Of a stretch of DNA of 64,000 nt, positions 49,732 to 59,085 are shown one piece after another (the first letter of the stretch is position 1; each line of letters begins with the position of its first letter). Made by a program: the position numbers and the translations under genes. The notes beneath the pieces are model-generated. The model was not told the origin of the DNA. It was given only the letters and a program-made list of their open reading frames with translations, and ran no database searches. The DNA is taken from positions 62,001 to 126,000 of the forward strand of contig NZ_KB907461.1 of NCBI RefSeq assembly GCF_000382045.1, read 5' to 3'. The stretch is from Variovorax atrisoli 110B (GTDB lineage Bacteria; Pseudomonadota; Gammaproteobacteria; Burkholderiales; Burkholderiaceae_C).

Positions 49732-50403
49732 ATGCCGCACAAGAAGGAAGCATCGATCCGACGTTCGCCCCAAGCCGATGCGCGGCACCAGCGCGGTGCC
49801 GTGGGAGCTGCCGAAACTGCCTTCGTGGACCAGGAGTCACAGGCAAATGCAGATGCCGACCTGGTGGAGCGGGGCATACGGCAATGGCAACGCGAGCGTC
49901 CTGACATCGACAGCAGCGGCAAGGCCGTGGTTGGCCGCCTGCTCAGGCTGGAGGAAGTGGTGCTGCGCACGCTGAACCAGGTGCTGGAGCCCTTCGGCCT
50001 GAAATACCAGGAGTACGCCGTGCTCGCGACGTTGCGCGTTGCCGGTGCCCCCTACAAGCTCTCGCCCTCCCGCTTGCAAAGCACGCTGCTGTTCACTTCG
50101 GGCGGCTTGTCGAACCTGCTGAAGCGGCTCGAGAAGGAAGGATGGATCAAGCGCTCCATCGATCCGAACGATGGGCGGGGCGTATTGGTCAAGCTCACGG
50201 CCAAGGGAATTCGCTTGGCCGACGAAGCGATGCCACGACATGCGGCCGCAGAATTGCATCTCCTGCGAATGTTCGACGCGTCTCAGCGCGACGCGCTGGC
50301 AACCCTGCTGAGCCGGATGATGACCGAGAATGCGCCGGAGACGGGGCCGATCCTCGGAGGGGGCAACCCGGCCGTTTCGACTGGCGGCCTGTTGCGCGAC
50401 TGA
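49732..50403 (+). CDS. MarR-family transcriptional regulator
   Basis: A 223-residue regulator from MPHKKEASIRRSP, with AGGAGA ten bases upstream; an ATG at 49693 is in frame but less likely. The first about 70 residues are an Ala/Gln/Arg-rich extension not typical of MarR. The winged HTH is LSPSRLQSTLLFTSGGLSNLLKRLEKEGWIKRS with the wing DPNDGRGVLVKLTAKG. It is divergent from the eight-gene importer operon and is its likely repressor through the palindrome at 49621. Confidence 0.9.
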   Translation: MPHKKEASIRRSPQADARHQRGAVGAAETAFVDQESQANADADLVERGIRQWQRERPDIDSSGKAVVGRLLRLEEVVLRTLNQVLEPFGLKYQEYAVLATLRVAGAPYKLSPSRLQSTLLFTSGGLSNLLKRLEKEGWIKRSIDPNDGRGVLVKLTAKGIRLADEAMPRHAAAELHLLRMFDASQRDALATLLSRMMTENAPETGPILGGGNPAVSTGGLLRD

Positions 50404-50599
50404 GGCGATTGCACGGAGAAGAGACGAGGCGTTGTTCGATGCCGCCGATCGCGGACCTTCGTCCTTTTCAGCTCCCTGAGCCCGGCCGTGTTGGGTCTCG
50501 TGACCGCGTTCCCGCCGATGATCTCCAGGGCAGGAACTGCTTTTCGATTTGTCCGCGGCCCTTCGTGGTTTTCCCACGAGGCTGCTACAGTAGCGCGGA

Positions 50600-50643
50600 C
50601 GAGGCCGCGAAGCCTCGACATTGACATGGAGCAGTGAAGCTCC
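50600..50643 (+). promoter_or_regulatory. Tandem hairpins of ANTAR-binding type in the amiC leader
   Basis: Hairpin P1 is CGAGGC-[CGCGAA]-GCCTCG (50600-50617), a 6-bp stem with a hexaloop. Hairpin P2 is GGAGC-[AGTGAA]-GCTCC (50628-50643), a 5-bp stem with a hexaloop having A at position 1 and G at position 4, the ANTAR recognition pattern. P2's 3' arm is part of the terminator's 5' arm (50638-50644), so the two folds exclude each other. Binding of AmiR to P1-P2 would block termination. Structure is seen; protein binding follows from knowledge of ANTAR proteins. Confidence 0.75.
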
Positions 50644-50680
50644 CGGCGGCCGCGATGGCTGCTGGGAGCTTTTTTCTTTT
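50638..50680 (+). terminator. Intrinsic terminator in the amiC leader (attenuator)
   Basis: AGCTCCC (50638-50644) pairs with GGGAGCT (50664-50670), and the inner bases continue pairing to a 14-bp stem with two G-U pairs and a 5-nt loop at 50652-50656. A U-rich tract follows (TTTTTCTTTT, 50671-50680). The amiC ribosome site GGAG lies at once after it, so the terminator is inside the transcription unit, not at its end. It also lies about 235 bp past the marR stop. Confidence 0.85.
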
Positions 50681-50691
50681 GGAGTTCGGAA

Positions 50692-51837
50692 ATGACCAGA
50701 TCCACAGCGCAGCCTTGGCGTGTCGGAGTGCTCTTCTCTTCCACGGGCGTCACCGCGGCGGTGGAGCGAACCCAGCAGGCCGCCACCCTGCTGGCGATCG
50801 AGGAAGTGAACGCGGCGGGCGGGGTCCTCGGCAGGCCGGTCGAGCCGCTGGTCCACGATCCGGCCTCACGCCCTCCGCGATACCGCGAGCTGGCCAAGCA
50901 GCTGTGCGACGAAGCGGGCGTGCCGGTGATATTCGGCTGCTACATGTCGAGCACACGAAAGGCGGTGCTTCCCGTGGTCGAGGCTCACCGCGCGCTGCTG
51001 TTCTACCCGACGCTGTATGAAGGCTTCGAGTACTCGCCGAACTGCGTCTACACCGGCGCTGCACCGAATCAGAACTCGGTCCAGCTGGTGCGCTACATGG
51101 CTAGCCACTTCGGCAAGAGACTGTTCCTGATCGGTTCGGACTACGTGTATCCCTACGAGTCCAACCGGATCATCGCGGACTTGTTCAGGCAAGCCGGCGG
51201 TGAGGTGCTCGACGAGATGTACATCCCGCTGCGGGTGGCGGACATCGATATGGCCAAGGTCATCCGGCGGATCGAGGCTGCGAAGCCCGACGTCGTCTAT
51301 TCGACGGTCGTGGGCGATGGCATTGCGCGCTTCTACGAGGCCTACCGTGCTGCGGGCTTCGACCCGAATACGCATCCGATCGCCAGTCAGTCGACCCAGG
51401 AGGCGGAGATCGCCCAGATGTCGCCACGGGCTGCCGCGGGCAGCATCACGGCGGCGCCGTATTTCTCGACACTGCAGACACCGGAGAACCTTAAGTTCGT
51501 CGCGGCCTGGCGCAAGCGCTTTGGCACAGGTTTGCCGATCACCGCGTGCGCCGAGTCGGCCTACTTCCAGGTGATGCTCTACGCGCAGACCCTGGAGCGC
51601 GCGGGCAGTGATCGGCTTGAAGCGATGCTGCCCCACCTGCACGAACATGAATTTGATGCGCCTCAGGGGAAGGTGCGGATCGACCAGGAAAACCACCATA
51701 CCTATCTGTGGCCGCGCGTCGCGCGCGTGGATGCACAAGGGGTGTTCCAGGTCGTTGACGACCCCGGTCTGCGGGTCAAACCCGACCCGTACATGTACGA
51801 GAGTCGCTTCGACCCGCTGGCGGGGCGCCCGGCGTGA
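50692..51837 (+). CDS. amiC: AmiC-type cytoplasmic amide-sensing regulator
   Basis: A 381-residue periplasmic-binding-protein-fold protein without a signal peptide: MTRSTAQPWRVGVLFSSTGV goes straight into the fold. GCYMSSTRKAVLPVVE, YPTLYEGFEYSPN, GAAPNQNS and FIGSDYVYP-like LIGSDYVYPYESN match Pseudomonas AmiC closely, as do GKVRIDQENHHTYLW and the KPDPYMYESRFD end. AmiC holds AmiR inactive and releases it when short amides bind. It is preceded by a conditional terminator and followed 15 bp later by amiR, so the regulator pair probably drives its own expression. Confidence 0.93.
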   Translation: MTRSTAQPWRVGVLFSSTGVTAAVERTQQAATLLAIEEVNAAGGVLGRPVEPLVHDPASRPPRYRELAKQLCDEAGVPVIFGCYMSSTRKAVLPVVEAHRALLFYPTLYEGFEYSPNCVYTGAAPNQNSVQLVRYMASHFGKRLFLIGSDYVYPYESNRIIADLFRQAGGEVLDEMYIPLRVADIDMAKVIRRIEAAKPDVVYSTVVGDGIARFYEAYRAAGFDPNTHPIASQSTQEAEIAQMSPRAAAGSITAAPYFSTLQTPENLKFVAAWRKRFGTGLPITACAESAYFQVMLYAQTLERAGSDRLEAMLPHLHEHEFDAPQGKVRIDQENHHTYLWPRVARVDAQGVFQVVDDPGLRVKPDPYMYESRFDPLAGRPA

Positions 51838-51852
51838 AGGAGGCAGGGCGCC

Positions 51853-52452
51853 ATGACCATATCGCTGCTGAGAGAGCTGCCCGAACTCAAGATCGTCGTC
51901 GTCCATCCGCCTGACGAGGAGGGGGACGCACTGGTAAGCCACTTGCGGCGCGTCGGCTGCATGGTCACCACGGCCTGGCCGATGCCCGCCAGCGTGCCGC
52001 CCAATGTCGATGTCCTCTTCCTGCTGGTGGAGGGGGAGGCGCGCCACGCGACCGAGGCGTTGCTCAAGACGCTGCCCCGACCCGAGCCGACGGTGATCGC
52101 CATCGTGAACTACGAGGATCCCACGACCTTGCAGCTGGTGCTCGAGAGCGCCGCATTTGCAGTGGTGCAAAAACCCATCAAGCCATTCGGTCTGCTGGCG
52201 CACCTCGTGACGGCGCGAAGCCTATGGGCCGAGCGTCAGGCCATGCTCAAGGAAAACCGCAAGCTGCGCCGTAAGATCACCAGCGACCAGGCCATGAGTC
52301 GCGCCAAGACGATCCTCATGGCCTCCAAGGGAATCAGCGAGGTGGACGCCTACCAGGCGATCCGGGCACAGGCGATGGCCAAGCGCTTGTCGATGGAACA
52401 GATTGCGAGTTCGATCATCAACATGGAAACCCTGTTGCAACCGCCGCCCTAA
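51853..52452 (+). CDS. amiR: AmiR-type antiterminator with ANTAR domain
   Basis: A 199-residue protein. Residues about 1-130 are a pseudo-receiver lacking the phospho-acceptor Asp (VVHPPDEEGDALVSHLRRVG, then FLLVEGEARHATEALLK). Residues about 130-160 form the coiled coil, and about 140-195 the ANTAR domain: SRAKTILMASKGISEVDAYQAIRAQAMAKRLSMEQIA. ANTAR proteins bind paired hexaloop hairpins in nascent RNA and prevent intrinsic termination. Two matching leaders flank this gene pair (50600-50680 and 52535-52613). Confidence 0.93.
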   Translation: MTISLLRELPELKIVVVHPPDEEGDALVSHLRRVGCMVTTAWPMPASVPPNVDVLFLLVEGEARHATEALLKTLPRPEPTVIAIVNYEDPTTLQLVLESAAFAVVQKPIKPFGLLAHLVTARSLWAERQAMLKENRKLRRKITSDQAMSRAKTILMASKGISEVDAYQAIRAQAMAKRLSMEQIASSIINMETLLQPPP

Positions 52453-52534
52453 CTCGTTAGCATGAACGCATCGAGTCGGCATGCCGATTCGGTGGTTGCA
52501 TCCCCTTGATATTCAGGCGCCGATGCGACCGGCT

Positions 52535-52577
52535 CCGGGAACCATGTGTGTTCTCCGGGCCACCTGGCAATGAAGCC
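52535..52577 (+). promoter_or_regulatory. Tandem hairpins of ANTAR-binding type in the importer leader
   Basis: P1 is CCGGGAAC (52535-52542) with GTTC-T-CCGG (52550-52558), an 8-bp stem with one bulge and loop CATGTGT, so C at position 1 and G at position 4, as in the amiC leader P1 loop. P2 is a short stem GGC-[AATGAA]-GCC (52566-52577) with hexaloop A1/G4, ending in the same UGAA as the amiC leader P2. Its 3' arm overlaps the terminator stem at 52573 onwards. P2 is weak alone and would need protein support. A separate hairpin GAGTCGG-CATG-CCGATTC lies at 52473-52490. Confidence 0.6.
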
Positions 52578-52613
52578 CACACCGCGGTGCAAACCGCGTT
52601 GTGGGTTTTTTTT
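52573..52613 (+). terminator. Intrinsic terminator in the importer leader (attenuator)
   Basis: CCCACA (52576-52581) pairs with TGTGGG (52600-52605), then after one mismatch CGCGGT (52583-52588) pairs with ACCGCG (52593-52598) around a GCAA tetraloop. Eight T follow at 52606-52613. It sits about 120 bp after the amiR stop and about 95 bp before the binding-protein gene, so it may end amiCR transcripts and also gate the importer operon, with read-through when AmiR is active. Confidence 0.88.
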
Positions 52614-52709
52614 CGCCTGAAACCGACAGTGTTGTCGGCTGGTCCTGTTAGTCGAGCTCATCAACCATCGGCAGCGCATGGTTCGCTGCGTCACGTCCTG
52701 AGGTCCCCT

Positions 52710-53957
52710 ATGTTGAAAACCAACCGTCGCCACTTCCTTCTTTCCTCGGCTGCTTCTGCGACCGCGCTCGCATCGCCGGTCCTCATGCGGCCCGCGTACG
52801 CAGCCGACGCCATCAGGGTCGGCGCGCTCTATTCGCAGACCGGCGGACTCTCGATCGTCGAGAAGATGCTCGCCAACGGCGTGCGCATGGCCGTCGCCGA
52901 GATCAATGCCGCAGGCGGTGTCATGGGGCGCAAGGTCGAAGTGGTGCTCGAGGACGGCGCTTCTGACCCGAAGACTTTCAACGAGAAGGCCTCCAAGCTG
53001 ATCACGCGTGATCGCATCGAGACCGTGTTCGGCTGCCACACCTCGGCGAGCCGCAAGGCGGTATTGCCCGTCTTCGAGCGGCGCAACGCGATGCTGTTCT
53101 ATCAGACCCACTACGAAGGCTTCGAGTGCTCGAAGAATGTCGTCTACAGCGGCGCGGTCGCCAACCAGCAGCTGGCCAACTACATTCCCTGGATCGTCGA
53201 GAAGCTGGGCAAGAAGAAGTTCTTCATCGTCGGCTCGAACTACGTCTATCCGCGAGAGATGTCCAAGGTCAGCAAGAAGCTGATCGAGCAGGCCGGTGCC
53301 AAGTGGGTGGCGGACGAGTACCTCGAGCTCGGTCATTCCGAATGGGCCTCGGTGGTGCGCAAGATCAAGGAGTCGGGCGCCGACGTGGTGCTCTCGCATG
53401 TGGTCGGTGACTCGCTGGTGGCCTTCTACCGGGAATACAAGAACCAGGGGATGTCCCAGGCTGCGGTGCCGATCTGCGCCACGGTGATCAGCGAGATCGA
53501 GATTGCAGCAATGGGGGGCGAATACGCGGCCGGCAGCTACACCTCGGTGCCCTACTTCATGTCCATCGACACGCCGGCCAACAAGTCCTTCATCGAGCGC
53601 TACCGCAAGTTTGTCAACGACCCGAAGGCGGTGACCTATCACTCGCTCGAAGCTGCTTACTTTCAAGTCTTCCTCTGGAAGCAGGCGGTGGAGGCGGGCA
53701 AGGCCACGACGGCCGATGCGATCCGCGCCAACATCGGTGGTCAGAGCTACGACGCACCCGGCGGCAAGGTTCGCATCGATCCGGAGAGCCTGCATGCATG
53801 GGTCACGCCGCGTATCGGCCAGTGGCAGGCCGACGGCCAGAGCAAGGTGGTCGATGCCAGTCCCCAGCCCGTTCGCCCGCTGCCTTACTTCGCCTACGGC
53901 GAGACCGATGCCAACCTGATCTGCAAGCGCACGGGCGCCGCTCCGGTCAAGGCCTGA
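52710..53957 (+). CDS. Urea/short-chain amide ABC transporter substrate-binding protein (UrtA/FmdD-like)
   Basis: A 415-residue exported receptor. The leader MLKTNRRHFLLSSAASATAL carries a twin-arginine motif (NRRHFL) and ends near AYAAD, so it is probably Tat-exported. The mature protein has IRVGALYSQTGGLSIVEKM, GCHTSASRKAVLPVFER and YQTHYEGFECS, the same fold and motifs as AmiC 2 kb upstream. Receptor and cytoplasmic sensor therefore probably recognise related ligands. It is the first gene of the importer operon under the terminator at 52573-52613. Confidence 0.92.
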   Translation: MLKTNRRHFLLSSAASATALASPVLMRPAYAADAIRVGALYSQTGGLSIVEKMLANGVRMAVAEINAAGGVMGRKVEVVLEDGASDPKTFNEKASKLITRDRIETVFGCHTSASRKAVLPVFERRNAMLFYQTHYEGFECSKNVVYSGAVANQQLANYIPWIVEKLGKKKFFIVGSNYVYPREMSKVSKKLIEQAGAKWVADEYLELGHSEWASVVRKIKESGADVVLSHVVGDSLVAFYREYKNQGMSQAAVPICATVISEIEIAAMGGEYAAGSYTSVPYFMSIDTPANKSFIERYRKFVNDPKAVTYHSLEAAYFQVFLWKQAVEAGKATTADAIRANIGGQSYDAPGGKVRIDPESLHAWVTPRIGQWQADGQSKVVDASPQPVRPLPYFAYGETDANLICKRTGAAPVKA

Positions 53958-54018
53958 GACGCCCAAGACCTGCAAGGCGCGCCTTGCAGGTCGAGCCTCT
54001 TCGAGAGAAAGACTTCCG

Positions 54019-54912
54019 ATGCTGGATGTAATACTGATCGGGCTCAGCATGGGCTCGATACTTCTGCTGGCCGCGCTGGGGCTGGTCATCATCTATGGCG
54101 CGATGGGCGTGGTGAACATGGCCCATGGCGAGATGATCATGGTTGGTGCCTATGCCGCCGTGATGGCGCAGATATGGCTGGGCCTTGGCCTGTTCGCTGC
54201 GATCCCGATCGCGTTCGTCGTCTCGGGCGCACTGGGCCTGCTGATTGAGCGATGTGTGGTGAGGCGCCTTTACGGCCGGCTTGGCGACACACTGCTTGCG
54301 ACCTGGGGGGTTGCCATCCTGATCCAGCAGGCGGTGCGGCTCGAAGGTGGCCTGGCCTTCTTCGGCATCCATATCGAGGGGCTGGGGCCGGGGCTGCAGA
54401 ACATGCCCATTCCGCAGATGCTGCAAGGCGCGGTGATGATCGGCCAGACGCCGATCAATGCCTATCGCGCGTTCATCGTGGCCAGCACCGTGGTGCTCAC
54501 CTTCGCGACCTGGCTGCTCCTGTATCGCACGCGCATCGGCATGCAGGTGCGCGCCATCATTCGAAATCCACGCATGGCCGCGGCCTGCGGCATCGATGTG
54601 CAACGGGTCAATGCATGGACCTTTGCCTTTGGTGCCGGCCTGGCCGGCATCACCGGCGTGCTCGTGGCGGGCTTCAAGACGGTATCCCCCGACATGGGAA
54701 CGGCCCTGGTCGTCGACAGCTTCCTGGTGGTGGTGTCGGGCGGTGTCGGCAGCCTGCTTGGCGCGATCGTCACCTCGATCGGGCTCGGAGAAGTCACCGG
54801 CGTGGTGGCGGCATTCAGCAACGACATCCTCGCGCGTGCGGTGGTGTTCGGCCTGGTGATTCTTCTGATCATCGTGCGCCCGCAGGGGCTCTTCTCGTTC
54901 AAGGGGCGGTGA
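54019..54912 (+). CDS. LivH/UrtB-type ABC transporter permease
   Basis: A 297-residue permease with about eight hydrophobic helices. GAMGVVNMAHGEMIMVGAYA is the family's N-terminal hallmark, and the EAA-like loop AIIRNPRMAAACGIDVQRVN contacts the ATPase. GGVGSLLGAIVTSIGLGEV and VRPQGLFSFKGR end it. It is shorter than cyanobacterial UrtB, which carries an extra exported domain. Its stop overlaps the next ATG (TGATG). Confidence 0.92.
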   Translation: MLDVILIGLSMGSILLLAALGLVIIYGAMGVVNMAHGEMIMVGAYAAVMAQIWLGLGLFAAIPIAFVVSGALGLLIERCVVRRLYGRLGDTLLATWGVAILIQQAVRLEGGLAFFGIHIEGLGPGLQNMPIPQMLQGAVMIGQTPINAYRAFIVASTVVLTFATWLLLYRTRIGMQVRAIIRNPRMAAACGIDVQRVNAWTFAFGAGLAGITGVLVAGFKTVSPDMGTALVVDSFLVVVSGGVGSLLGAIVTSIGLGEVTGVVAAFSNDILARAVVFGLVILLIIVRPQGLFSFKGR

Positions 54913-56042
54913 TGGCCATGGGAACCTCTCTGGACAAGCGTCTGACCGTGGCTGCGTATGCACTGTTCCTGGGGCTGATCTTTCTGGCTCCGCTCGTGCT
55001 CGACGGCTTCGGACTCAATCGGCTCGCCAAGTATCTGGTGTTCGGTATGCTCGGCATTGCCGTTGCCATGTGCTGGGGCTACGCAGGCATCCTCAACCTC
55101 GGGCAAGGCCTTTTCTTCGGCTTGGGCGCCTACATGCTCGCCATGTCGCTGAAGATGGCGAGCCCCACCAGCCTGCAGCATGGGGGCGCGAATCCCGTGC
55201 CCGATTTCATGCTGTCCAACGCCGAGCCCGGCGCGACAGTGGATCTGTGCTGCATCAACCAGGGCTCGTTCCTCTGGCTGCCTTTCCAATCCCAGGGCTT
55301 CGGCATCTTCATGGGCGTGGTGTTGCCGGTGCTGGTAGCCTTCGTTTTGGGGGGCGTGTTGTTCCGAAAGCGCATCGCGGGGGTGTTCGTCTCGATCGTC
55401 ACGCTCGCGCTGGTGTTGCTGGTGCGCCTCCTGCTGGTGGACGCGCAGCCGCTGACCAACGGGTTCAACGGGCTGTCCGACCTCGCATGGCTGCGCGTTG
55501 GCGCGCACGAGTTCGACCCTTACGGCACATCGACGTACTACCTGGTCGCGCTCACGCTCGCATTCGTGCTGATCGGCGCGCGAGTCTTGCTCGCCACGCG
55601 CGCCGGCGTGATCCTGCGCGCGACTTCGGGCGATCCGCAGCGCGCGCGCTACCTGGGATTCGACGTGGCGCACTATCAGACCTTCTTCTTCGCGTTGTCC
55701 GCGGCCATCGCCGCCGTGGCCGGCATGCTCTATGTGGTGGTGGCCGAGTTCGCTTCGCCCACTTTCATGGACCTGAGCTTCTCGATCACGATGGTGGTCT
55801 GGGCTGCGGTGGGTGGCCGGGGCTCGCTGCTGGGTGCGTGCATCGGCGCGATCCTGATCAACATTCTGGAGGCGACCGCGAGCGAGACGCAGTCGCTGGT
55901 CGAAGCCTGGCGTGTCATCGTGGGCTTGACCTTCGTGCTGGTGGTGCTCTACCTGCCCAAAGGCATCGGTGGCTGGGCCCACGACCTGATCGCGCGCTTC
56001 GACCACCGCACGCGCGCCCGCGCGGCCGGGGGGAGGTCATGA
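54912..56042 (+). CDS. LivM/UrtC-type ABC transporter permease
   Basis: A 376-residue permease. CWGYAGILNLGQGLFFGLGAY is the LivM/UrtC hallmark. The long extracytoplasmic loop MASPTSLQHGGANPVPDFML with DLCCINQGSFLWLPF is a feature of the UrtC branch. The cytoplasmic loop RATSGDPQRARYLGFDVAHYQ meets the ATPase. It overlaps the ATPase gene by 4 bp. Confidence 0.92.
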   Translation: MAMGTSLDKRLTVAAYALFLGLIFLAPLVLDGFGLNRLAKYLVFGMLGIAVAMCWGYAGILNLGQGLFFGLGAYMLAMSLKMASPTSLQHGGANPVPDFMLSNAEPGATVDLCCINQGSFLWLPFQSQGFGIFMGVVLPVLVAFVLGGVLFRKRIAGVFVSIVTLALVLLVRLLLVDAQPLTNGFNGLSDLAWLRVGAHEFDPYGTSTYYLVALTLAFVLIGARVLLATRAGVILRATSGDPQRARYLGFDVAHYQTFFFALSAAIAAVAGMLYVVVAEFASPTFMDLSFSITMVVWAAVGGRGSLLGACIGAILINILEATASETQSLVEAWRVIVGLTFVLVVLYLPKGIGGWAHDLIARFDHRTRARAAGGRS

Positions 56043-56791
56043 CCGCGCTCGAACTCCAGTCGCTGGGCGTGAGTTTTGGCGGCTTCAAGGCCGTGGATGG
56101 CGTCTCGCTGCGCGTGGCCGACGGCGAGTTGCGCGTGCTGCTGGGTGCCAATGGGGCAGGGAAGACCACCTTGATGGATCTGATCTCGGGCAAGACGGCG
56201 AGTACGACGGGCCGTGTCCTGCTTTACGGACGCGACCTGACGAATCGGCCCGAATACCGGATCGCCCGCGCGGGCATCGGCCGCAAGTTCCAGATCCCCA
56301 GTGTTTTCCGCGAACTCTCGGTGCGACACAACCTGTGCGTGGCTGCGAGCCGGGAGCCTTCCATCCTGCGCAATCTGCGCTGGGGCTTCGGGCACGGGAT
56401 CGATGCTCGGGTGGATGAGATCCTGAACCTCATCGGCCTGGAAGCCGAGCAGCACCGACTTGGCGGTGACCTCAGCCACGGGCAGACGCAGTGGCTGGAA
56501 CTGGGGCTGCTGATCGCGCAGGACCCCAAGGTGATCCTGCTCGACGAACCCACCGCCGGCATGACGGCCGCCGAAACGCGCAAGACCGCCCAGATTCTCA
56601 AGAGCCTGCGCGGACGCCACACCATCCTGGTGGTCGAGCACGACATGGCCTTCGTACGCGACATTGCCGAGCGCATCACCGTGCTGCATCTGGGGCGCGT
56701 GCTGGCCGAAGGCAACGTCGCCGAGATCGAGCGGGATCCCCGCGTGCGGCAGGCCTATCTCGGATCCCACGGAATCGCATCGCCATGTTGA
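56039..56791 (+). CDS. LivG/UrtD-type ABC transporter ATP-binding protein
   Basis: A 250-residue ATPase from ATG 56039 with GGGAGG just upstream. Walker A is LGANGAGKTT, the signature is LSHGQTQWLELGLLI (LSHGQ, as in UrtD), and Walker B is VILLDEPTAGMT. The frame upstream of the ATG is off-frame of the permease and is not included. It overlaps the permease by 4 bp and the next ATPase by 7 bp. Confidence 0.92.
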   Translation: MTALELQSLGVSFGGFKAVDGVSLRVADGELRVLLGANGAGKTTLMDLISGKTASTTGRVLLYGRDLTNRPEYRIARAGIGRKFQIPSVFRELSVRHNLCVAASREPSILRNLRWGFGHGIDARVDEILNLIGLEAEQHRLGGDLSHGQTQWLELGLLIAQDPKVILLDEPTAGMTAAETRKTAQILKSLRGRHTILVVEHDMAFVRDIAERITVLHLGRVLAEGNVAEIERDPRVRQAYLGSHGIASPC

Positions 56792-57477
56792 CACTCACGA
56801 ATCTCGACAGCTACTACGGCCGCAGCCATGCGCTGCACGACGTCAGCCTGGTCATTCCCCGAGGAAAGATCACTGCCATTCTCGGGCGCAACGGCATGGG
56901 CAAGACGACGCTGCTGCGCGCGCTGATGGGCACCATGGTGAACTCGACCGGCCGCATCGAGCTCGATGGGCAGCGCGTCGACGCGCTGCCCACGCACCTG
57001 CGCGCTCGTGCGGGCATTGCCTATGTACCGCAGGGGCGCGAGATCATTCCCGACTTCAGCGTCCGTCAGAACATTCTGATGGGCGCCTTCGCCGGGCGGG
57101 GTCCGCGCACGATCCCCGCACTGGCGCTCGAACTGTTTCCGTATCTTGCAGCGAATCTGGAGCGCCCAGGCGGTGTGCTGTCCGGTGGCCAGCAGCAGCA
57201 GCTCGCCCTGGCGCGCGCCTTGGCGATCCATCCGAGCGTGATGCTGCTCGACGAGCCCAACGAGGGCATCCAGCCATCGGTCGTGCAGGAGATCGAGGCT
57301 GCGATCTCGCGCATGAATCGCGAACTGGGGCTCACGATGGTGCTGGTGGAGCAGAACATCGATTTCGTGCGCCGTGTCGCCAGCAGCTTCGCGATGCTCG
57401 AGAAGGGATCGTTCGTCGCGAGCGGTCCCATCGAGATGCTGAGCGACGAGATCGTCGATCTCCACATGACCTTCTGA
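56785..57477 (+). CDS. LivF/UrtE-type ABC transporter ATP-binding protein
   Basis: A 230-residue ATPase from MLTLTNLDSYYGRS. Walker A is LGRNGMGKTT, the signature LSGGQQQQLALARAL, Walker B VMLLDEPNEGIQ, and the switch His lies just before VEQNIDFV. The LSGGQQQQ and EGIQPSVVQEIE segments are typical of UrtE. It completes the importer (receptor, two permeases, two ATPases). Confidence 0.92.
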   Translation: MLTLTNLDSYYGRSHALHDVSLVIPRGKITAILGRNGMGKTTLLRALMGTMVNSTGRIELDGQRVDALPTHLRARAGIAYVPQGREIIPDFSVRQNILMGAFAGRGPRTIPALALELFPYLAANLERPGGVLSGGQQQQLALARALAIHPSVMLLDEPNEGIQPSVVQEIEAAISRMNRELGLTMVLVEQNIDFVRRVASSFAMLEKGSFVASGPIEMLSDEIVDLHMTF

Positions 57478-57543: not shown

Positions 57544-59085
57544 ATGAACCAGATCACCCCTGACATCGACCTCACGACCCTGACCATCGACAGCGTCCAG
57601 GAGGGTTTCCGAAGCGGCCGTTTCAATGCAGAGTCGCTTGCACGAGCCTGCCTTGCTCAGATCGAGACCTGGAACGCGCGCTACAACGCCGTCATCTTCC
57701 TCAACGACGAAGCCGTCGACGACGCGCGTGCCATTGATCGTCGACGCCAGGCCGGCGAAGCGCTGGGCCCGCTCGCAGGCGTGCCCGTCGTGGTCAAGGA
57801 TCCGATGGACATGGTCGGCTTTCCGACGACCGCCGGCTGGGCGCTGTTGCACAGCAAGACCGGCGGCGTCGACCTGATGCCTGCGACCGATGCTCCTGTC
57901 GTGGCGCGCATGCGCGCCGCCGGTGCCATCATCCTCGGCAAGACCAACGTGCCGATCCTGAGCCACACCGGAACGCACGCGGACGACAGCTGGGCGGGTC
58001 CCACGCTCAACGTTGTCGTGCCGGATCGCGTGCCTGGAGGAAGCAGCGCCGGTACGGCAACGGCGGTGGGCGCCAGCATGGCGGTATTGGGACTCGCTGA
58101 GGAAACGGGAGGCTCCATCCAGAATCCGGCTTCGGCTCAGGATCTGGTGGGCATCAAGCCGACCATCGGCCTGGTGCCCAACGCCGGCGTCATGCCGCTG
58201 TCTGGCAACCGGGACGTCGTCGGACCGATCGCACGTACCGTGAAGGATGCGGCGCTCTGCCTGGACGTGCTGGCGGGCTACTCCGCAGAAGACCCGAAGA
58301 CGCTGGCCGGCGTCGGCAAGAAGCCGGTGGGGGGCTACACCTCGAAGTTCGGCAGCCGCACCCTGGAAGGGGCACGCATCGGCTTGTATGGGCCCGGCTG
58401 GCGCACACAGCCGCTCTCTGGCGAGGCGAACGCGCTCTATCTGCGTGCGGCTGATGAACTAAAGGCGCGAGGTGCCGTGCTGATCGATGACCCGTTTGCA
58501 GGCACCGGCTTCGCAGACCTGCGCCAGCCGACGCCGCCACTGGCGAACTTCGATGCCCGCGGGATGGAATCCGTACCCTATGACCTGCAGAAGTACCTCG
58601 AGCGCCTGGGCCCCGATGCGGCGCTCACGTCCTTCGCCGAGTTCGCCGCAGCGACCCAGAGCGAGTCCGCCTTCGGACCGAAGGGGGTGTTGAGCTATCT
58701 GCACAATCTGCCGCAGTTCGCAGCCGCCCTGAAGTCGCCCACCGTGCCACCGGACCTTTCGGATTTCATCGCACTGAAGGAAGCCTATCTGCGAATCGTG
58801 GACGAGGTGTTCGGGCGCGAGCGACTCGATGCACTGGTGTTTCCTCAGATGCGCGAGGAGTTGCCTGCCGTGAAGACCGGCACCATTCAGGAAACCACGG
58901 TGGGCGAACTCAACATCGCGGGCCTTCCGGCGGTGACCGTGCCGGCAGGCTACTACGCGTCGGGTGCGCCCTTTGGTCTGCTGTTCGTCGGTCCGCTGTG
59001 GAGCGAAGCGGTGCTGCTCGCGCTGGCGCACGACTACGAGCAGGCAACCCAGCATCGCAAGCCACCCCGTCTCCGCGGCGCCTGA
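57544..59085 (+). CDS. Amidase signature family enzyme
   Basis: A 513-residue amidase from MNQITPDIDLTT, 66 bp after the importer. The triad can be placed at Lys85 (VPVVVKDPMDM), Ser167 (PGGSSAGTATAV) and Ser191 (EETGGSIQNPAS). PAGYYASGAPFGLLFVGPLW ends the fold. No signal peptide is seen. It is the obvious catabolic partner of the importer: it would release ammonia and acid from the imported amide. Pseudomonas uses the unrelated nitrilase-type AmiE in this role, so the enzyme class has been swapped here. No strong ribosome site precedes the ATG. Confidence 0.92.
   Translation: MNQITPDIDLTTLTIDSVQEGFRSGRFNAESLARACLAQIETWNARYNAVIFLNDEAVDDARAIDRRRQAGEALGPLAGVPVVVKDPMDMVGFPTTAGWALLHSKTGGVDLMPATDAPVVARMRAAGAIILGKTNVPILSHTGTHADDSWAGPTLNVVVPDRVPGGSSAGTATAVGASMAVLGLAEETGGSIQNPASAQDLVGIKPTIGLVPNAGVMPLSGNRDVVGPIARTVKDAALCLDVLAGYSAEDPKTLAGVGKKPVGGYTSKFGSRTLEGARIGLYGPGWRTQPLSGEANALYLRAADELKARGAVLIDDPFAGTGFADLRQPTPPLANFDARGMESVPYDLQKYLERLGPDAALTSFAEFAAATQSESAFGPKGVLSYLHNLPQFAAALKSPTVPPDLSDFIALKEAYLRIVDEVFGRERLDALVFPQMREELPAVKTGTIQETTVGELNIAGLPAVTVPAGYYASGAPFGLLFVGPLWSEAVLLALAHDYEQATQHRKPPRLRGA

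Follow-up and report, generated by a model that had tools for sequence, protein, structure and literature searches.

Does an amide-sensing switch of the AmiC/AmiR type control only its target operon, or does it also gate the synthesis of its own regulators? The question is raised by a locus in Variovorax atrisoli 110B that lies in a stretch of 64,000 nucleotides (nt) of contig NZ_KB907461.1 (positions 62,001 to 126,000, forward strand; hereafter the window, whose own numbering we use), part of a 7.5-Mb genome. There, amiC, amiR, a urtABCDE-like ABC importer and an amidase-signature enzyme follow one another in this order, and both amiC and the importer are preceded by an intrinsic terminator that shares its 5' arm with a hairpin whose six-base loop has A at position 1 and G at position 4 (an A1/G4 hexaloop; AGTGAA before amiC, AATGAA before the importer). 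This arrangement had been pointed out in an earlier note on the same DNA and is confirmed here. We consider it likely that both leaders are transcription attenuators controlled by AmiR, an ANTAR antiterminator, and the amide switch probably amplifies itself through the terminator that stands before amiCR.

Our comparison covers nine orthologous loci with the order amiC-amiR-urt and an AmiR of 69-100% identity (the window, L026-L031, L103 and L105), which comprise the window, six contigs of Variovorax, Pseudorhodoferax and Paracidovorax, and two further genomes of the same genus; L104, L106 and L107 duplicate the contigs of L030, L028 and L026, respectively, and were counted once. The closest named relative found at the locus is Variovorax sp. 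SG517 (L026), whose AmiR is 98% identical to that of the window.

In the amiC leader, the putative antiterminator hairpin, P2 (50628..50643, plus strand, as are all features below; GGAGC[AGTGAA]GCTCC, five-base-pair stem, loop at 50633-50638), is invariant in all nine loci, and its 3' arm is the beginning of the 5' arm of the terminator (50637..50671, T-run to 50675), the stem of which is 100% paired over 126 alignment cells. The hairpin is followed by six T and 16 bases, including GGAG as a possible ribosome-binding sequence, and then by the start codon, and the distance from hairpin to start codon is 22-24 nt in every one of the nine loci (start codons placed by alignment). As this is too short for a promoter, amiC must be transcribed through the terminator hairpin, and the terminator, judging by the sequence, must be conditional. 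Its stem begins at 50636 or 50637, and a longer variant that pairs the loop with the T-run begins at 50633; the first five to nine bases of P2 are dispensable for termination, and their constancy therefore argues for an antiterminator. Indeed, the 5' arm and loop of P2 are invariant in 11 of 11 columns, as against 4 of 38 in the adjoining 5' hairpin and linker, and in L103 an A to G substitution in the 3' arm of the terminator has left the shared 5' arm as it was. The 5' hairpin itself (50600..50617, loop CGCGAA, six-base-pair stem) has counterparts in relatives, which also form hairpins here, with loops that vary in size and sequence. Upstream of it we assigned by hand a putative extended -10 element of the amiCR promoter (TGCTACAGT, 50583..50591); the underlying pattern, TGNTANAGT, which was picked after the alignment had been seen, occurs once per locus on the plus strand, 45-54 nt upstream of P2 in 9/9 loci, and is also single on that strand across the whole window.

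The importer leader is built around the same overlap, the 3' arm of its P2 (52566..52577; GGC[AATGAA]GCC, three-base-pair stem, loop at 52569-52574) being the beginning of the terminator 5' arm (52573..52608, eight T to 52613; 94.0% paired, with two-sided changes in 5 of 13 pairs). A putative promoter, hand-assigned from the alignments, overlaps the end of amiR (TTGCAA, 17 nt, TAGCAT; 52435..52463) and is followed by two covarying 5' hairpins that are newly described here, H1 (52469..52494; 98.8% of cells paired, two-sided changes in 4 of 9 pairs) and H2 (52495..52529; outer stem 98.6% paired with 4 of 8 pairs changed on both sides, inner stem 93.3% paired with none), and by the hairpin P1 (52537..52555; 100% paired, 3 of 6 pairs two-sided), which has a seven-base loop, CATGTGT, at 52543-52549. 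H2 encloses a CCTTGA..TCAGG element that is kept in eight of the nine loci. A coding reading of this leader was considered and set aside: the frame upstream of urtA is open from 52506 in the window, but the aligned relatives shift its length, several of them with stops. From the end of the terminator to urtA there are about 100-110 nt, so that here, unlike at amiC, a downstream promoter is possible by space.

Terminators of this kind are not in themselves rare enough to make the case. A scan of both strands of the window returned five terminator-like entries, namely the amiC terminator twice (with two T-runs), the importer terminator once and two on the minus strand, and an A1/G4 P2 is present only at the amiC and importer terminators; 20 dinucleotide shuffles gave 55 terminator-like entries, one of them with such a P2, which amounts to about 0.05 expected per window against the two seen. 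A looser scan of 50400-52720 found the same two terminators and nothing else, and the shuffles averaged 1.3. Terminators alone are therefore weak evidence, and it is the overlap with P2 and its conservation that carry the argument. No Rfam family matched in the window at gathering thresholds.

Both pairs of P2 and terminator are kept in all nine loci, and the hexaloops, on whose retention in homologous loci the earlier note's proposal hinged, are retained throughout, with a single departure in one importer loop (AATGGA in L029). For the importer leader, we counted 46 pairs over nine rows on a structure drawn by hand from the alignment and compared them with 500 shuffles, which, the rows being related, yield counts and not probabilities. 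Across the leader, 97.1% of cells are paired, 16 pairs change on both sides (shuffled mean 6.7) and the covariation score is 0.323 (0.166 in shuffles); each of these three values was matched by 0 of 500 shuffles, and the count of further pair types by 19 of 500. The covariation is carried by H1, the outer stem of H2, P1 and the terminator. At the amiC terminator the covariation score was likewise matched by 0/500 shuffles, and the number of pair types by 314/500.

The amiC leader is also set apart by its distribution. Among 35 amiCR loci (34 distinct AmiR sequences), a script that looked for a terminator and its P2 no more than 450 nt from amiC found one in 9/9 window-type loci and in 0/26 others, and in a tree of AmiR, rooted at midpoint and with some long branches, the nine form one clade (support 100/99) that stands beside L040, L108 and L110 (99/94). 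On these grounds a gate of amiCR's own is well supported. In the other loci, where enough sequence is available, amiCR comes after urt genes or an amidase, or else before its target, and in L043 urtA is inverted. A terminator before urtA or after amiR occurs in 10 of the 26 (L034, L037, L044, L109, L111, L113-L116 and L118); L112 also has one, a weak candidate in L040 was not counted, and L117 carries a terminator before a gene scoring as an aliphatic amidase (705 bits, cut-off 427), in a Pseudomonas-like order. For several of the remaining loci the fetched stretch does not include the start of urtA.

Within the genus, a window-type AmiR (at least 85% identity) is encoded in 6 of 101 genomes. 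Two leader models, R1 and R2, which were run over the same genomes on the best 38 or 58 first-look candidates in each, gave matches at E 0.01 in 10 genomes (R1) and 9 genomes (R2), and the strong matches fall in the same six genomes that have this AmiR; since those six had been part of the model alignments, only the missing strong matches in the other 95 are informative. The weak matches were inspected by eye and discarded: for R1, G682 looks like a paralogous ami/urt-type leader, and G703, G737 and G761, as well as G689, G715 and G749 for R2, look like unrelated terminators or chance; weak minus-strand matches in L172 and L182-L184 coincide with true sites. A second such site in the own genome was found neither by exact-pattern nor by model searches, the latter over the best first-look candidates. 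At the level of the order, the P2 pattern with at most one mismatch occurs at 42 places in 41 of 399 genomes, against about 26 for a reversed-pattern control (counted by hand); among the 30 places examined, only the window's own is followed by a separate terminator, and at two others the hairpin itself is the terminator.

The regulator fits a hexaloop-reading role in part. We matched residue numbers of AmiR and EutV by hand from a pairwise alignment and took the RNA contacts as named in the account of EutV (PMC8934654). Window-type AmiR keeps 6 of 11 contacts in all nine loci, with Tyr164, Met172, Glu160, Arg168, Lys149 and Arg175 of EutV corresponding to Y167, M175, E163, R171, K152 and R178 of AmiR, and EutV Lys147 is replaced by Arg. 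By this alignment, AmiR has the face that would read the loop but lacks some of the remaining contacts.

Where the evidence is less favourable is in the part of the leader that lies upstream of P2. Ramesh 2012 defined ANTAR leaders by two A1/G4 hexaloops (PMC3369931). Both of our leaders have the intrinsic terminator before the controlled gene in 9/9 loci, and a P2 hexaloop with A1 and G4, on a stem of at least three base pairs, that overlaps its 5' arm (AGTGAA in 9/9; AATGAA in 8/9 and AATGGA in 1/9); a conserved upstream P1 hexaloop with A1 and G4 is found in neither, which places both outside that definition. The earlier note had proposed an upstream hairpin loop with C1 and G4 in each leader, and neither withstood comparison as a hexaloop. 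In the amiC leader, the hairpin it had called P1 has the loop CGCGAA in the window, CGCAAA in L026 and other sizes and sequences elsewhere (CGCGAG on a mismatched stem in L103); hexaloops with G4, on stems of at least three base pairs, lie upstream of P2 in four of the nine loci, at differing places, and none among all those listed is common to the nine. In the importer leader, the loop has seven bases and not six (CAUGUGU in eight loci, GGUCAAC in L031). The note's view that the amiC leader is the cleaner one thus holds for P2 and the terminator and fails for P1, and its proposal of two AmiR-type leaders gating the importer and amiCR stands on position, conservation and clade restriction, with the pairing of hexaloops given up. 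Walshe 2022 reduced the minimal binding site to one hexaloop (PMC8934654), and one G4 hexaloop with its stem is what each leader offers.

Several points weigh against AmiR control of both leaders and have kept us from a firmer statement. EutV is reported to need both hairpins for antitermination in vivo (PMC3369931, PMC8934654), within a set distance of each other (PMC8934654), and there is no conserved upstream A1/G4 hexaloop here. At four further EutV contacts, the window's AmiR has Asp, Gln, Ala and Ser in place of Arg142, Lys143, Asn173 and Arg177, respectively. The importer P2 has a stem of just three base pairs and is thermodynamically unremarkable (z -0.97); covariation at the amiC terminator is thin, its three two-sided pairs being matched by 34 of 500 shuffles; the nine loci share descent, which partly explains their identity; and a scan of 50400-52720 for consensus sigma-70 promoters found none, so that the promoters given above were assigned by eye.

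How the importer is controlled beyond its terminator is a separate matter, raised by a hairpin that we describe here for the first time. P3 (52623..52643; CCGAC[AGTGTT]GTCGG followed by CTGGT) lies downstream of the importer terminator and upstream of urtA, and is an A1/G4 hexaloop hairpin conserved in 9/9 loci, with 18 of 21 columns invariant; in its consensus, CCGAC[AGTGYY]GTCGGCTGGT, variation is confined to loop positions 5-6 and the first base of the stem. P2 and P3 are the only G4 hexaloops common to all nine importer leaders. P3, perhaps together with a hairpin near the start codon, might constitute a second layer of control in which AmiR binds P3 and translation or the stability of the mRNA is affected, a reading that is compatible with AmiR-controlled attenuation and that we regard as somewhat unlikely. 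It would account for the constancy of P3 and for L110, a member of the neighbouring AmiR clade, which has a close variant of P3, CCGAC[AGCGCC]GTCGG, ahead of urtA without a convincing intrinsic terminator; yet P3 shows no covariation in the nine loci, where it varies too little to covary, so that it could be a DNA operator, and the hairpin near the importer start codon is poorly conserved (3 of 24 columns). P3 may be an old AmiR site that was kept after the terminator gate had been added, or such an operator. As a repeated genomic element it was discounted, the own genome holding one exact match and nine with two mismatches, against three for the reversed pattern. Loops like that of P3 also occur upstream in other loci (AGTGCT in L037 and L169, AGTGTT in L115). 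Both L108 and L110 have an A1/G4 hexaloop upstream of urtA (on a mismatched stem in L108), no convincing intrinsic terminator, and then a pyrimidine-rich stretch; our guess for these two would be Rho-dependent or translational control.

The lack of a conserved recruitment hexaloop before amiC also leaves room for a reading in which AmiR controls the importer leader, and the amiC leader, leaky and under no regulation, simply keeps amiCR low by attenuation. The requirement of EutV for both hairpins in vivo (PMC8934654) speaks for it; against it stands the perfect conservation of the P2 5' arm and of a loop, AGTGAA, that is of the same kind as AATGAA before the importer, and we think it improbable. 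Less probable still is that the hairpin before amiC terminates the upstream gene and resembles P2 by accident. A MarR-type gene does end 234 nt upstream, on the strand of amiC, but by tblastn only two of the nine loci, the window and L026, have marR close to amiC, and all nine have the terminator; moreover, the dispensable 5' arm of P2 is invariant, and a terminator that acted constitutively at 22-24 nt from the start codon would shut amiC off.

AmiR-controlled attenuation of both transcripts could then proceed as follows. Without inducer, AmiC would hold AmiR, and both transcripts would end at their terminators, with only leaky expression of amiCR. An inducing amide would release AmiR from AmiC, and before RNA polymerase has left the leader AmiR would bind the P2 hexaloop and keep P2 paired; as paired P2 uses the 5' arm of the terminator, read-through would follow. 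At the importer leader this would turn on urtABCDE and the amidase, and at the amiC leader it would yield more AmiC and AmiR, closing a local positive loop. The amiC leader seems to function with a single conserved hexaloop. That AmiR in this clade antiterminates with one pre-terminator hexaloop, the amiC leader being a natural switch of this kind over its own regulator, and in addition acts beyond the terminator of the importer leader through P3, is a combination we put forward tentatively, as possible and not as our expectation. A single-hexaloop amiC switch, if true, would contradict the rule that antitermination takes two upstream hexaloops.

The identities that the earlier note had given to the genes were upheld by Pfam, NCBIfam and PDB matches. 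The predicted amide-sensing negative regulator AmiC (50692..51837) has a Peripla_BP_5 domain and matches the AmiC structures (PDB 1pea/1qo0, E 4e-111), and adjoins its cognate AmiR (51853..52452), which has the Pfam domains AmiR_N and ANTAR and matches AmiR in PDB 1qo0 (E 3e-28); by homology to this pair, AmiR would be gated by AmiC in response to amides. The importer (52710..57477) is, by its sequence, a relative of the urea transporter UrtABCDE. UrtB, UrtC and UrtD score above the curated NCBIfam cut-offs, and UrtA (415.8 against 492.75) and UrtE (284.6 against 285.8, 1.2 bits short) below theirs; as not all five subunits pass, we leave its substrate open. The amidase-signature enzyme (57544..59085) belongs to the Pfam Amidase family (E 3.6e-75).

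Leaders in related loci follow other loop rules. In the paralogous ami/urt leaders of L169, L034 and L037, from the genus and family, P1 has the G4 hexaloop (AGTGCT, AACGTT) and P2 lacks G4 (AATAAA, AACAAG and an A-rich loop), a mirror image of the window leaders; the paralogue of the same genus, L169, combines P1 AGTGCT with P2 AATAAA. In L111-L115 and L118, three hexaloop hairpins were recognised by eye between amiR and the downstream amidase gene (a carbon-nitrogen hydrolase in L115 and L118), the last of them at the terminator, and AmiR has Thr at the position of EutV Met172. L044 and L116 share an identical AmiR and terminator region although their genomes are placed in separate families within one order, a hint of recent transfer.

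Among the closest known systems is the ami operon of Pseudomonas aeruginosa, which has the same regulator pair (PDB 1pea/1qo0) and a leader terminator overlapping a hexaloop hairpin (PMC3369936, PMC3369931). As described there, the operon is amiECBRS and the target of AmiR is the leader that precedes amiE, so that the regulators lie within the controlled operon and feedback by read-through is already implied (PMC3369936). The contrast that the earlier note had drawn with Pseudomonas therefore needs narrowing: a regulator downstream of the terminator it controls, within its own antiterminated operon, is already known, and what is new here is the separate, dedicated leader of amiCR. Where P. aeruginosa has one leader before an amiE operon that includes the regulators, this locus has separate leaders for amiCR and for the importer with its amidase, and where both loops of the published amiE leader show A1/G4 (PMC3369931), each leader here has one such hexaloop before its terminator. 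Described ANTAR leaders precede amiE, nas, eut, nitrogen genes and urea transporters (PMC3369931, PMC3369936, PMC8934654, PMC8164766, PMC5821096); since Ramesh 2012 lists urea transporters among the leader matches (PMC3369931), the importer is not a new kind of target. A separate leader before amiCR was not described in the parts of the literature surveyed, with subscription journals mostly outside, which does not establish its absence from print. Other AmiC/AmiR-urt loci likewise have amiCR beside urt genes or an amidase, several with one or more hexaloops and a terminator before the target operon, but no leader before amiC was detected in any of the 26, and their loop rules differ, up to the three tandem hexaloops in distant loci of the phylum.

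The eut system of Enterococcus faecalis resembles the present one in that a single ANTAR protein, EutV, governs several terminators, which have P2 antiterminators (PMC3369931, PMC5821096), but its leaders have two A1/G4 hexaloops, as opposed to the one that precedes each terminator here, and EutV is phosphorylated, whereas AmiR is expected to be gated by AmiC. The own genome also holds a second ANTAR gene on contig C1 (domain at C1:1610652-1610804), followed by a leader (L046:7066-7163) with two canonical A1/G4 hexaloops, AACGGC and AAAGGC, the second of which overlaps the terminator, and by genes that score as the ATPase of a nitrate ABC transporter and as NirB. Walshe 2022 left open why two hairpins are needed and what weight single-hexaloop targets carry (PMC8934654). 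Here, one AmiR apparently serves two natural leaders in one locus, both of them lacking a second A1/G4 hexaloop ahead of the terminator, in a genome that also has a canonical two-hexaloop leader between its other ANTAR gene and genes of nitrate uptake and nirB, which makes the question of hairpin number testable with simple reporters, and the dedicated amiC leader a small model of positive feedback at the RNA level.

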